DNA of 50,353 nt from an uncultured Fidelibacterota bacterium. GTDB taxonomy: Bacteria > Fidelibacterota > Marinisomatia > Marinisomatales > TCS55. The notes beneath the pieces were generated by a model. It was given only the letters and a program-made list of their open reading frames with translations. It searched no databases and was not told the origin of the DNA. A program made the position numbers and the translations under genes. Location: contig CAJXWT010000005.1 of NCBI GenBank assembly GCA_913062595.1, forward strand, positions 1 through 50,353, in the 5' to 3' direction. Positions 11,687-39,169 of the stretch are shown piece by piece (position 1 is the stretch's first letter; every line of letters begins with the position of its first letter).

Positions 11687-13747
11687 ATGGGCAGAGACTT
11701 CTTCCAAATTCTTTTACCTATTTTCATCATCCTTTCTTCTATTGCTGGTAAAAACCTCATAGTACACGGCAGGTATGACCCGCAGAACAGGGAACTGCTG
11801 GATGTAAAATTCTCCGGGAATACCATGATTATTACGGGCAATCTGAACGGGACAGAATTCTATGATATATCCGATTCGTTGAATCCTATTCATCTTGCCA
11901 ACCTGGAAATACCTTTTGGTAACCAAAATCGGGCCTTGCCGAACTTTATCGCTGCAATTTCTGATACCATACTTTATTTATCTTCCCGGCAACGGGGTAT
12001 TGCAATCGTTAATATTTCGGACCCCTCCAACCCCCAATATATTGACATGGTTACCCAACCAGCTGGTTCAAACTACAGCTATGATGGACTAACGGTTCGT
12101 GATTCAATTCTATATGCTGCCGCCCATGAACATGGTGTAATTCTTTTCAATATCAGTTCACCTGAGTTACCCACCTATTATGGCCAGATTAATACGGAAA
12201 ATGCCTGGGGTACAGCCTTTTTTGATTCTTTGCTGATTATCATGGATGGTGAATTTGGTTTTAAGATTATGAATATCGCCGACCTCTCTAATCCAATTAC
12301 AATAGCGGATGTGTTTACAGAAGGAGCAACAAAGGATATGGCCCTGGATGGAGATCATCTAAACGTAGCAATGGGTAGTGACGGTATTGCCCGCTATGAT
12401 CTTTCGGACCCTTCCGATCCACAATTACTGGCCACCTATAATAGTGCTGGCTTCGCCAATAGAATCGCCCTCTTTAATGGCAAGATTGCCGTTTCTGAAT
12501 GGCTGGATGTAAAAATCCTAGAATACAATGGCAGTGAAATCGAACTGGTTGGTTATAAAAATACCGGATATCGCACAATGGCCATCAATACCAAAGGTAA
12601 TGTCATTTATTCCGCAGAATGGCGTCATTTACAGGTGCTGGAATACGGATCCATTTCCGGACCAGACCTGGACCTTAGTTCCCACGATATCAGTTTTCCG
12701 GAAATAAATATCGGAGAACAAGATACTATGCTGCTTTACTTAACTAATAATGGCAGCGAATTACTTGTGTTTGATTACGACTATTTTTCCCATGCAGATT
12801 TCTCTACTTCAACTGAACTAAACACATTAGCCGCTGGAGATTCAATTGTAGTTGATATCATTTACACAAAGTCTGGCCAAAACGCCACGGGCGTGTATAA
12901 CATTCCATCAAATGACCCTGACGAATCTCAATTATCTTGCGATATTTTGGGCAATTATGATGGCGTAAATATTGGTATGACTGCACCAGACTTTACCCTG
13001 CCCATTGCAGCCAACGGAACGGGGAATTTTAACCTCAATCAGCATTGGTCAAGTGCTGGTGAAATTGTGGTTATTGCCTTCTTTTCTCCTGGCTGACCTG
13101 TATGCAGTCCGGAGTTATCGGACCTGGAAGTTTCAATTTGGCAGGAATACAGTGACGATGTTGTCACCCTCATCGGTATAACTGCAGTTAATGAAGGGCA
13201 GATCAGCCAATTTGTGATTGATAATGGCCTCACCTTTCCTATTTTAAAGGATACGCGTAGTGGTCCTGGTATCGGTACAGGTGTTATTTATGATCAGTAT
13301 TATATTCCAAACCAGGGCTCACCCTACCCACGGGATTTTATAATCGGGACAGATGGAAATGTGTATTACGTAAATAACGAAATTGATACAGAATACATGA
13401 TCGCTGTAATAGAAATGCTCTTGGCTGGAGAAAATGTAAGTATTAAACCTGGAGAGAACATTATCACTCCAGAAATACAATTGGTTAAAGCCTACCCAAA
13501 TCCATTTAACGGATCCACAAACATCATTTATACTTTGTCAAAACCAGGTAATGTATCCATAAATATCTTTGATTTAACCGGTCGACTGGTATCAGGATTC
13601 GATCGGGGATTACAGCAAGCTGGGCGTCAAAATCTGCACTGGTCACCGAGAAACCAGAGAGCCGCGGGATTATCTTCCGGAATGTATATATATCAAATTG
13701 AAACGGGTAAAACCATAACTGATGGTAAAATGCTGTACCTGAAATAA
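11687..13747 (+). CDS. Secreted selenoprotein: beta-propeller, ASH-like domain, Sec-containing redoxin, sorting domain
   Basis: A single reading frame of 686 residues if UGA at 13094-13096 is read as selenocysteine (residue 470). Order: signal peptide (1-21); about seven LVIVD-like propeller repeats (about 25-325) with recurring NISDPSNP-type turns; an immunoglobulin-like ASH/'choice-of-anchor' domain (about 326-430); a TlpA/AhpC-TSA redoxin domain (about 431-600) opening TAPDFTLP; and a C-terminal YPNPFN sorting domain ending MLYLK. The active site reads FFSPG-U-PVCSPEL. UGA replaces the first Cys of CxxC, the second Cys follows, and the presumed cis-Pro is in SPYPRDF. The frame continues intact for 216 codons. 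A hairpin follows the UGA. A nonsense mutation of a Cys codon cannot be excluded by this gene alone, but the second case nearby argues for selenocysteine. It would act outside the cytoplasm, probably at the cell surface. Confidence 0.82.
13105..13126 (+). promoter_or_regulatory. Candidate bacterial SECIS hairpin for the UGA at 13094
   Basis: Downstream of UGA the perfect stem GTCCG (13107-13111) / CGGAC (13119-13123) closes a seven-base loop GAGTTAT. An alternative pairing adds CAG (13105-13107) with CTG (13124-13126) and leaves one bulged C. The loop opens with G, 16 bases after the UGA. This matches the spacing and the loop-G rule known for bacterial SECIS elements. The folding was done by eye. 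Confidence 0.65.
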
Positions 13748-13766: not shown

Positions 13767-14360
13767 TTAGTCCTTGAACTTTATCCCGCAACCCAACGCT
13801 TTTGTTGATGCATATTTTATTGTACTGCCGGTCAGCATCGCATCGATAGCATCGGCGACATATGGTTTTTTCACTTTATGTGGTTTTTTGGCATTATCAT
13901 CGATTGCACCGCGATAAACCAGTTGGTCCTCTGCATTGAATAAGTAGACATGGGGTGTCCTGGTAGCACCAAATTCTCGAGCCAGTTTCGCACCGCTATC
14001 CATGGCATAATAAAAATTATATCCTTTGTCCTTAGCATGCGCTTTCATTTTATCCATGCTATCCACGGAGCCAAAAGTTGTTTCGTTAGAATTCAACGCA
14101 ATCATGCCCACACCTTTAGACTGATATTTCTTAGCTAGTTCAACATAGCGGTCTTCCCATTTAATAACCCATGGGCAGGTATTGCAGGAAAAAATAACCA
14201 AAAGGCCATTCTCTCCCTTTGCTTCGCCTAATGATACTTTCTTTCCGCTAATATCCATCATTTTTACATCTCCCAGCGGTAAGTCAGAACCGAGATCTAA
14301 TTCTTCTGCTTGAATACCAAAGCAAAGTAATAATGTGACTACAAAAATTAACTTTTTCAT
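13767..14360 (-). CDS. Exported thioredoxin-like / redoxin protein with CNTC active site
   Basis: A periplasmic thioredoxin-fold protein of the AhpC-TSA/redoxin type, 197 residues. A signal peptide (1-18, ending IQA) is followed by the redox motif C59-N-T-C62 in FSCNTCPWV and by TPHVYLF with the presumed cis-Pro. This 'CNTCPWV / CNHCPYV' group is widespread and poorly characterised. It starts eight bases after the stop of the Sec-containing TlpA-like gene, with AGGAGT five bases before ATG, so the two form an operon. It keeps an ordinary Cys pair, and a natural guess is that it exchanges electrons with the Sec protein. This is inference. Confidence 0.88.
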   Translation of the reverse strand: MKKLIFVVTLLLCFGIQAEELDLGSDLPLGDVKMMDISGKKVSLGEAKGENGLLVIFSCNTCPWVIKWEDRYVELAKKYQSKGVGMIALNSNETTFGSVDSMDKMKAHAKDKGYNFYYAMDSGAKLAREFGATRTPHVYLFNAEDQLVYRGAIDDNAKKPHKVKKPYVADAIDAMLTGSTIKYASTKALGCGIKFKD

Positions 14361-14368
14361 GATGACTC

Positions 14369-14860
14369 CTATAAATTTATTGCTTTTTCTACCGTTTCAA
14401 TGAAGTGCTTTTCATGTTTTGAATTTTCCCAATAATCTACTATTGATCCTGATAATTTACCAAACACAATTGTAAAGGGCAGACTGCCAGTCCATTCCCT
14501 ATGAAAACCATTGATAAATTCTTCCCCAGGTTGGTCCTTAATATAAGATTGACCACTCACATCCATCGATTTCAGAAAATCTTTTACTTGTTTTTCCTCT
14601 TCAAGCCAATCGGCACTTACAAAAATTACCTTCAGGTCTTGATTGTATTTCTTGCCTAAACTATGAACAAACGGAAACTCCGCCATACAGGGACTTCACC
14701 ATGTTGCCCATACATTAATCAAAACCGCTTTTTTTCCCTTCTCTTCCTGTGCAGCAGCAAGTACGTCCTGGGCTGTGGCTCGCTCAAGGTTCAAACGATC
14801 ACAGCCATAATTAGAAAACAACGCTAGGTAAATAACTATTAGTTTTATATTATAATTCAC
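14369..14860 (-). CDS. TlpA-like selenoprotein (WATW-U-SPC), membrane-anchored or periplasmic
   Basis: A thioredoxin-fold protein of the TlpA/ResA type, 163 residues if UGA at 14698-14696 is read as selenocysteine (residue 55). The active site is NVWATW-U-SPC: in TlpA-like proteins this position is the first Cys of WCxPC, and here only that codon is UGA. The second Cys (58), the following MAEFP and the cis-Pro in GSLPF are all present, and the frame runs on to TAG at 14371-14369. The start is uncertain. GTG at 14860 gives a hydrophobic N-terminus (IKLIVIYLALF) ending in a Cys at residue 20 with a poor lipobox, and no clear ribosome site is seen. It lies 27 bases after the aminotransferase gene and directly before the CNTC redoxin gene. 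A gene caller that stops at UGA would report only the C-terminal 105 residues. Confidence 0.82.
14670..14684 (-). promoter_or_regulatory. Candidate bacterial SECIS hairpin for the UGA at 14698
   Basis: Twelve bases after the UGA the sequence GGCGGA-GTT-TCCGTT can fold with stem CGGA/TCCG, extended by two G-U pairs, and a loop starting with G (+18 from the UGA). It is weaker than the element in the neighbouring gene. Both share GGAGTT starting at +15, partly because both proteins need a Glu codon there. The folding was done by eye. Confidence 0.45.
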
Positions 14861-14887: not shown

Positions 14888-16309
14888 CTATTTCAGTAAC
14901 TGAATCCGTTTACTAGCCGCTAATTCACCCTGGATCAAGTTACATATATAAATGCCAGATGCTACTGGCTTGCCAAATACATTCTTTCCATCCCACGTTA
15001 AAGTATGGCTACCAATACCAATGGTACCGCTTACTATGGTTTTAATTTTTCGACCAAGTGTATCATAGATAACCAAGGATACTTTTTCATCACTCAAAGT
15101 AGAAAATTTGATCGTACAACTAGAATTAAATGGATTTGGATATACTGTATGCAATCCGAAAATCGCAGGTTGAATATTATTAACAGTGGTCTGTAAATCC
15201 AATGCAGCGGCCAGGGCAGTTAAAAATCCATTCATTTCATCTACAGTGCCAGTAGATACACGCAAATGCTGAGGCATATCCCAACCAGTCCTAACCTGAT
15301 AACCAGAATCTGCAAGTGCATTCAGAACAGCGCCAGCGTCCGTGCCCGTATCTACCATGATATAATTGGTCTCTGATGGAATATATTGCAGTCCCAAGTC
15401 GGTGAAACCAGTGTATAAAATCGTTTTCGCATTGATATTAAGAGAAACAGTATCACTGATATGATCCAAATCATCCAAACCAGCAATAGCAGCAGCCTGA
15501 GTTGCCCGGCTCACAGTAGCATAAAGTTGTGTATCGCTTATTTCGTCAGTTAGTTCAGTTGATGCCAGTGTGTAACCCACTCTTGCCCCAGCCAATCCGT
15601 ACGCTTTTGATAATGTGCGTATAATTACGATGGCAATACCCTGATCTATATAGGGCACACAACTTTCATAGTTTGTTGTCTGGACATATTCATGATAGGC
15701 TTCATCAACACACACAACCACCCCATCAGGTACCTCAGCTAAGAATGAAGCCATATCATCCTTATTGATTATTCTGGCCAAAGGATTATTGGGATTTACC
15801 AATGATATTAATGTTGTATTATTTGTAATAGCACTCAGAATTCCATCCAGATCAATAATGTAATTTTCATCCACAGGTACATATACAACCGTAGCACCAT
15901 TTGCAATCGCCTCATTCGCTATTTGTGTATAAGAAGGTGTAGCTGTAATGACTTCATCTCCTGGTCCCAGGAAAGCATCAGCAACTTTTTGGATCATTTC
16001 GGTCGCCCCTGCACCCACACACACATTGTCCTGATTTAAATCAAAATTATCAGCCACTGCATTTTCCACATTACTATTTAACCAATCTGGGTAGCGGTGC
16101 GTCAAGGCTGCTTCATCTCGTAGCGCTGCTAAAGCCAAGGGAGATGGACCAAGCGGATTTTCATTATAACAAATTCGTCCAACATAATCATTAGGATCAA
16201 TCGTTGAAAATGGTCGTGCATGAATTCGGCCGACACCAGGGAGCACCATTGCACTAAATACAGCAGCTGAATGCACAAATTCACGCCTAGAAAGTGTTGT
16301 TTTACTCAA
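14888..16309 (-). CDS. Exported histidinol-phosphate-aminotransferase-like PLP enzyme with Tat signal and sorting domain
   Basis: A fold-type I, class I/II aminotransferase most like HisC. The PLP lysine is Lys235 in RTLSKAYGLAGARVGY. Further family marks are CYNENPLGPSP near the N-terminus, GAGATEM, PSYTQIANEA, NPNNPLARI and VDEAYHEYV. The N-terminus carries a twin-arginine signal (SRREFV, then a hydrophobic stretch to IHA). The C-terminal roughly 80 residues are a beta-sandwich sorting domain starting VYPNPFNS and ending RIQLLK. The combination implies a folded, cofactor-loaded enzyme exported by Tat and then moved to the cell surface. I prefer TTG at 16309 as the start, because ATG 16372 would overlap the upstream gene by 58 bases and give an unusually long pre-RR segment. 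No his genes are nearby, so a histidine-synthesis role is unlikely. Confidence 0.82.
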   Translation of the reverse strand: MSKTTLSRREFVHSAAVFSAMVLPGVGRIHARPFSTIDPNDYVGRICYNENPLGPSPLALAALRDEAALTHRYPDWLNSNVENAVADNFDLNQDNVCVGAGATEMIQKVADAFLGPGDEVITATPSYTQIANEAIANGATVVYVPVDENYIIDLDGILSAITNNTTLISLVNPNNPLARIINKDDMASFLAEVPDGVVVCVDEAYHEYVQTTNYESCVPYIDQGIAIVIIRTLSKAYGLAGARVGYTLASTELTDEISDTQLYATVSRATQAAAIAGLDDLDHISDTVSLNINAKTILYTGFTDLGLQYIPSETNYIMVDTGTDAGAVLNALADSGYQVRTGWDMPQHLRVSTGTVDEMNGFLTALAAALDLQTTVNNIQPAIFGLHTVYPNPFNSSCTIKFSTLSDEKVSLVIYDTLGRKIKTIVSGTIGIGSHTLTWDGKNVFGKPVASGIYICNLIQGELAASKRIQLLK

Positions 16310-16314
16310 TCCTT

Positions 16315-17343
16315 TTATCTGCTTTGAAATTGAGGGAAAAGCGAACCTAGATACTGGCCCGACCCAGAACATACAGGTGTAAAATCCGGTATATTATCAG
16401 GTATGTTATCAAAATCATCATTAATCTTATCATAAACTTCAGTCTTTGAAGCAAAACTATAGGCGGGAGGAATAAAGTAATTGATTGTTAAGGTATTTGG
16501 GTCGTAAATAAAATGATTAAGCGAGTCAACACCTAATTCCAAAGTGAAATAAACAAGAAAGGAATCATTTTCTTCATTCATAAAAGAGTAAGAATAAAAT
16601 TCACCAGATGAATCAATTTCTATATTAAAGGTATGAGTGAAAAAACAGGAAGTACCCTCATTAGGATAATAGGGTACACCATCACATTTTCCTTCCCAAT
16701 CTCCGAAAGTAAAGTAAGCCCCGGCATCAGGAAAAAATATTAATGCGGAATCATGGTCTGTTCCCCTATCAACAATATCCCATGTTATTATTGTGTCACC
16801 TGAGGTAGAATCTATTGTAAACCCGATAGTATCTAACCAGGTACACTCATCTTTTAATTCCCATAAACCCTTGAATAAGTAAAGATCCTCTAAAGACGCT
16901 GTTGTGCCGCCGGTGGTATCCACGCAGGGTGAACAACTGTTGTAGCATACTATATCCAGAATTAAAGAATCATTATCAGGTATTTCCAACCAGCGATTAC
17001 CTGTACCAGATAAGGCGCAAGGTAAAGTATCTATTACTTCTGCATTCCCACCCAGAACATTACTATTTAGATAAATATATTGGACTGTATCTCCGATGGC
17101 ACAGGAAAGTGTTACTTCATATACGCCATCATCATTTGAATCCAACATTTCTTCAATAGAACCATTGGGGGATTCCATTGTGCCGGCAATATGTACACCA
17201 TTAGTGGATACAGTTTCGTTGCCCATATCAACTCTGAATGTCACGTTGGCTTCTGTAGAGGATTCTCCATTACCATTACAAGAGGGATAAAACAGTAAAG
17301 AAAATAGCGAAATAGTAAGTACGAAAAATTTTATCCGAGGCAT
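16315..17343 (-). CDS. Lipoprotein with an N-terminal CBM20/AMPK-like beta domain
   Basis: Function unknown. A type II signal peptide ends in FYPSC (Cys22), so the protein is probably a lipoprotein. Residues about 32-120 start VTFRVDMGNETVS, continue NGVHIAGTM and have a DSNDDGVYEVTL segment. This looks like the glycogen/starch-binding-like beta-sandwich often found at the N-terminus of Bacteroidetes surface proteins. The rest (about 150-330) is acidic and Cys-containing (CTWLDT, GKCDGVPYYP, TSCFF) with many beta strands, and may form a second binding domain or a calycin-like fold. The gene lies directly upstream of the exported aminotransferase and may be co-transcribed with it. Confidence 0.65.
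   Translation of the reverse strand: MPRIKFFVLTISLFSLLFYPSCNGNGESSTEANVTFRVDMGNETVSTNGVHIAGTMESPNGSIEEMLDSNDDGVYEVTLSCAIGDTVQYIYLNSNVLGGNAEVIDTLPCALSGTGNRWLEIPDNDSLILDIVCYNSCSPCVDTTGGTTASLEDLYLFKGLWELKDECTWLDTIGFTIDSTSGDTIITWDIVDRGTDHDSALIFFPDAGAYFTFGDWEGKCDGVPYYPNEGTSCFFTHTFNIEIDSSGEFYSYSFMNEENDSFLVYFTLELGVDSLNHFIYDPNTLTINYFIPPAYSFASKTEVYDKINDDFDNIPDNIPDFTPVCSGSGQYLGSLFPQFQSR

Positions 17344-35986: not shown

Positions 35987-39169
<3,183 letters not shown>

Follow-up and report, generated by a model that had tools for sequence, protein, structure and literature searches.

Does the in-frame UGA at positions 14696 to 14698 of the minus strand end a gene, interrupt a decayed one or encode selenocysteine (Sec)? 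The window, a stretch of 50,353 nucleotides, belongs to a metagenome-assembled genome (MAG) of Neomarinimicrobiota (SAR406/Marinimicrobia), a draft of 134 contigs that is 90% complete. Without recoding, the listed open reading frame is only a 105-aa fragment (14369-14686), and standard annotation pipelines would split the gene at 14369-14860 or label it a pseudogene. Translation with TGA as Sec, from the GTG start at 14860 to the TAG stop at 14371-14369 (minus strand), yields 163 codons with one TGA, at residue 55 within WATWUSPC. This triplet replaces exactly the first Cys of a WATW-C-x-P-C thioredoxin site (WATW-C-S-P-C here), thus forming the first position of a UxxC motif. The resolving Cys58 (14687-14689), which is invariant in the alignment, Glu61-Phe-Pro, the cis-proline P128 (14477-14479; SLPFT, an invariant column) and the C-terminus are all intact. 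The first-pass annotation had placed the UGA at the first Cys of a TlpA/ResA active site with the second Cys, the cis-Pro loop and the C-terminus preserved, and the translation bears out both its coordinates and its reading. The start position is common to the congeneric orthologs, whose start codons are GTG, GTG, ATG and TTG.

A homology search with the full protein, which had been proposed as a check, retrieved both Cys orthologs and a TGA-bearing clade of a single genus. The nearest genomes are the Candidatus Neomarinimicrobiota MAGs NAT422, PW3.metabat2.108 and NAT38 together with MED-G176, all from the same genus as the window genome. Relatives were recovered by an alignment-based genome scan; a single-sequence scan, whose patterns lay on variable parts, matched none. 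TGA occupies the identical codon in all five congeneric genes (the window and four other genomes; WATWU[SG][PS]C), and Cys without any stop is found in this column in all 51 other relatives compared, which stem from Neomarinimicrobiota, Balneolota, Bacteroidota, Verrucomicrobiota and others. The predicted Cys/Sec exchange among related genomes was thus found exactly at residue 55, a pattern much too regular to be accidental. In the tree of 56 proteins, the five TGA genes group together as a single clade (support 100/100) nested within the Cys-containing Neomarinimicrobiota, which indicates a single Cys-to-Sec exchange in one genus. The simplest history, judged from these sequences, would be that Cys was replaced by Sec once in the ancestor of the genus. 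The situation represents a clean natural experiment. With one exchange in one genus and with close Cys-containing relatives that share the partner gene, it allows tests of what Sec contributes and of how a SECIS element arises. One more genome of the genus, the sixth (G003; 72% complete, 210 contigs), yielded no close copy of the gene, and incompleteness may account for its absence. A second copy at a contig end of the NAT38 assembly (L124; end of NZXJ01000011.1, G002:C43:27898-28065) comprises the first 56 codons to the TGA and is a duplicate or strain variant.

The most obvious objection is that the TGA is a mutated Cys codon, produced by a sequencing or assembly error or by recent pseudogenization. 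A single substitution suffices to turn TGC or TGT into TGA, and the genome is a fragmented draft; the same TGA is nevertheless present in four other genomes, and its recurrence in five separately assembled genomes excludes a sequencing error, one of the refuting outcomes that had been named. In addition, the reading frame stays open before and after the codon, with constraint in both parts. Comparison of the window gene with its sisters in the region past the UGA gives dN values of 0.17 to 0.24 and dS values of 1.3 to 2.0 (for L020 versus L021 dN is 0.168 and dS 1.371, i.e. dN/dS about 0.12). These low ratios show that coding constraint continues beyond the UGA under strong purifying selection. 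Conserved TGA and downstream selection together refute an error or pseudogene, which we regard as very improbable, also in view of the full Sec machinery encoded in the genome.

The second objection takes the UGA for a real stop that separates a protein of 54 aa from one of 105 aa starting at the ATG at 14686, or terminates an upstream part with a regulatory role. The ATG at 14686 is indeed the mechanical start of the 105-aa frame, but the four sister genes have ATA, ATA, GTT and ATT as the codon after Cys58. This codon is not a start codon in any of them, hence an internal start is not conserved and the split-gene reading is unsupported. The 105-aa fragment would moreover begin just past the active site, and both constraint and residue identity run continuously along the single-frame Cys orthologs. 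Two separate products therefore have a very small chance of being correct, comparable to that of a mutated codon.

Decoding of the UGA as Sec presupposes the corresponding pathway, whose sel genes the first-pass annotation had wished to see checked, and this pathway is complete in the window genome. The genes selA (512 bits) and selB (370 bits) are located side by side on contig C3, and selD (391 bits, with an in-frame TGA of its own) and a tRNA-Sec with the anticodon TCA (66 bits) were found as well. UGA is the ordinary stop of 8 of the 35 window genes, which argues against a general reassignment of the code. Reading of the UGA by any other means than SelB and tRNA-Sec, such as near-cognate suppression by Trp or Cys or a code change, is the least probable explanation of all, because UGA regularly terminates window genes, every exchange is to Cys at one redox position, which is the hallmark of Sec, and the complete pathway is accompanied by selD and a TxxU peroxiredoxin that also carry TGA at known Sec positions. 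We consider Sec decoding established in this Neomarinimicrobiota genus. It is also common in the group, since selA scored above the cut-off in 75 of the 101 related genomes searched. A survey from 2016 listed three SAR406 single-cell genomes with an orphan SelD (PMC5029168), for which incompleteness is the likely reason. Two further genes of the window genome deserve mention. The selD gene (G000:C63:231-1157, L009) is itself a selenoprotein gene with a TGA near its start (ggt tga gca, G-U-A), and a Bcp-type peroxiredoxin (G000:C1:19822-20235, L053) has a TGA at PGUTTEG followed after 14 nt by GGGATT; its TxxU site resembles that of known Sec peroxiredoxins.

A bacterial SECIS stem-loop is predicted immediately 3' of the UGA (14661-14692, minus strand), and the sequence GCGGAGTTTCCG is part of this hairpin. 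None of the five Sec genes deviates in its core GCGGAGUUUCCG, shortly past the UGA. The apical part GCGGA-GUU-UCCG is identical throughout, the lower stem is variable, and the first nucleotide of the consensus apical loop GUU is a G, the 18th nucleotide past the UGA. The element has the form of a bacterial SECIS, i.e. a stem-loop that directly follows the UGA and has a small G-containing apical loop, and its support from folding energy is modest: compared with synonymous recodings it is individually significant in only two of the five genes (fractions 0.008 and 0.0085), with fractions from 0.09 to 0.29 in the others. Covariation is minimal, with changes on both sides in only one base pair. At the codon level, positions +5 to +9 past the UGA (GCG GAG TTT CCG TTT) are identical in all five genes, five consecutive codons compared with 30 identical codons among the 70 conserved-residue columns overall. 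The hairpin includes the motif GGAGTT (14676-14681), which lies 14 nt past the TGA and recurs at the same offset behind the neighbouring recoded TGA at 13094; it is in part explained by the conserved Glu-Phe/Leu of the protein family. A search with Rfam at the gathering threshold matched no family within the window. TGA-N14-GGRRTT was rejected as a selenoprotein marker on its own, with 80 genome-wide matches versus 49 in the reversed control. A third match to TGA-N14-GGAGTT in the window (38833-38855) was taken as an out-of-frame chance match, as it falls within the open 1058-aa gene at 35987-39163, in which no stop interrupts the first 154 codons.

Due to the conservation of TGA at the position of a redox Cys, the complete Sec pathway, the purifying selection past the UGA and the invariant hairpin, we read the locus as a selenoprotein gene. 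Judged from sequence comparison, UGA55 is almost certainly decoded as Sec and the gene, from an organism known only through metagenome assemblies, would encode a genuine selenoprotein. SelB would bind the hairpin right after the UGA, with its apical GUU and conserved G, and thereby deliver Sec-tRNA-Sec to the ribosome.

The protein belongs to the thioredoxin/redoxin group of Pfam with PF13905 (Thioredoxin_8) as the best match. A structure model based on 44 relatives (pLDDT 93) exhibits the order beta-alpha-beta-alpha-beta-(alpha-beta)-alpha-beta-beta-alpha, i.e. a thioredoxin fold that includes the additional helix-strand characteristic of ResA and TlpA. The W-[AC]-x-x-C-x-x-C site with Sec as its first Cys, the cis-proline and the extra helix-strand after the third strand are all present and define the TlpA/ResA/DsbE fold class. 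ResA-type oxidoreductases (4nmu and 1st9) are the nearest PDB structures, and TlpA (1jfu) was found by profile. The scores are far below the equivalog cut-offs for TlpA (NF047696, 52.7 of 230 bits), ResA (NF002854, 45.5 of 170) and DsbE (TIGR00385, 38.4 of 123.15), so that the label "TlpA-like" of the first-pass annotation, with which fold and motif agree, is appropriate, whereas plain "TlpA" would claim too much. None of the selenoprotein models in NCBIfam claims the window protein. Its N-terminus comprises a hydrophobic helix (residues 4-15 in the model) and Cys20 (14801-14803), the predicted lipid-attachment cysteine, which is invariant in an eight-sequence alignment. The lipobox is weak in the window protein (SNYGC) and canonical in the sister species (LIGC/LLGC). 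We infer a lipoprotein-type TlpA/ResA-like thiol-disulfide reductase, and likewise its substrate. Viral contigs and phages provided only distant thioredoxins, with no sign of a mobile or viral gene.

The candidate partner is encoded directly downstream (13767-14360, minus strand), an exported protein of the AhpC/Redoxin family with a CxxC motif (FSCNTCPWV) and the C-terminus LGCGIKF. Its ATG follows 8 nt past the selenoprotein stop, hence both genes probably form one operon. Of 55 homologous loci, 42 have the redoxin gene immediately behind the TlpA-like gene and nine have it about 3 kb downstream; in the other four, the retrieved stretch does not contain it. This pairing holds for Sec and Cys versions alike and extends across several phyla. 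In the nine loci with the distant arrangement, all from Neomarinimicrobiota (L085, L087, L088, L091, L095, L098, L099, L100 and L106), an aminotransferase-like match is located in between. Gene order and presence make it fairly probable that the TlpA-like protein and the redoxin are a functional pair.

The product would be exported and held by a lipid anchor at Cys20, and its thioredoxin domain would lie on the outer side of the cytoplasmic membrane. The selenolate of U55 would attack a disulfide, and C58 would resolve the mixed selenosulfide. The exported CxxC redoxin is the most likely direct client or partner, and both proteins may constitute a two-component extracytoplasmic thiol-redox module in which the lipoprotein reductase gives electrons to the redoxin or takes them from it. 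The U55-C58 pair would then have to be re-reduced, plausibly by a membrane reductase of the DsbD type. Such a protein (DsbD_TM) is indeed encoded on another contig of the genome, where it adjoins another redoxin; on the basis of gene presence we name it only tentatively as the reductant. The replacement of Cys by Sec presumably provides faster thiol exchange or more resistance to over-oxidation.

The gene on the other side of the redoxin (11687-13747, plus strand) is a candidate selenoprotein of its own. It has a TGA at 13094-13096 and combines LVIVD/choice-of-anchor repeats with a redoxin domain, which contains SPGUPVC, and with a type IX secretion tail. Its ortholog in L063 has TGA at the same codon, which substantiates the earlier suggestion of mutual support between the two adjacent cases. 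In L062 the gene is reduced to a short remnant that lacks most of its length, and the corresponding place in L061 and L064 yielded no ortholog. Upstream of the TlpA-like gene, a HisC-like aminotransferase is fused to a type IX secretion sorting tail/FlgD_ig domain (14888-16372, minus strand). This unusual fusion shares 58 nt with the gene at 16315-17343, and the syntenic positions in L061, L062 and L064 yielded no match to it.

Selenoproteins of this general kind are not new. UxxC TlpA-like and thiol-disulfide isomerase-like selenoproteins are already catalogued, mostly from marine metagenomes. The thiol-disulfide isomerase-like UxxC selenoprotein (cd02966 TlpA-like; PF13905 in an earlier review) was first described from the Sargasso Sea (PMC1088965, PMC9312934, PMC13188914), and current selenoprotein lists contain this family (PF13905/cd02966) next to the Prx-like thiol:disulfide oxidoreductase (PF00578) and the Redoxin family (PF08534). 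The window protein shares the domain class (PF13905), the UxxC motif and the origin from marine bacteria with the former, a likeness of domain and motif only, but the redoxin pairing and the genus-level Cys-to-Sec exchange do not appear in the portions of the descriptions at hand (PMC1088965, PMC9312934, PMC13188914). Trx-like 1 (COG0526; 321 Sec sequences) and Prx-like 1 (PF00578; 225) are among the commonest selenoproteins of ocean metagenomes in the Global Ocean Sampling data (PMC2398784). They have the same UxxC thioredoxin fold, but are broad domain-defined classes that do not resolve the lineage and the neighbours of the window protein. NF041054, the ResA-like WAxxUGC selenoprotein of NCBIfam, is comparable in its ResA-like domain with Sec in the WAxx motif, but it contains UGC instead of UxxC in a model of 354 positions, and the window protein scores 15.9 against a cut-off of 300. 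ResA, TlpA and DsbE (CcmG) have the same WATWCxPC-type motif, extra helix-strand and cis-proline and are membrane-anchored, as the window protein is predicted to be; the latter, however, has Sec for the first Cys and is a short protein with a thioredoxin-like N-terminus. New are the lineage, the clean single exchange of Cys for Sec and the conserved redoxin partner. A bolder reading, slightly less likely than not, would be an uncatalogued selenoprotein subfamily, a short TlpA-like UxxC lipoprotein reductase that is joined with a PRX-like CxxC redoxin in a two-gene extracytoplasmic redox module of ancient conservation. Within it, a single marine Neomarinimicrobiota genus would have swapped Cys for Sec once, and the SECIS would have evolved inside a coding motif that was conserved before.
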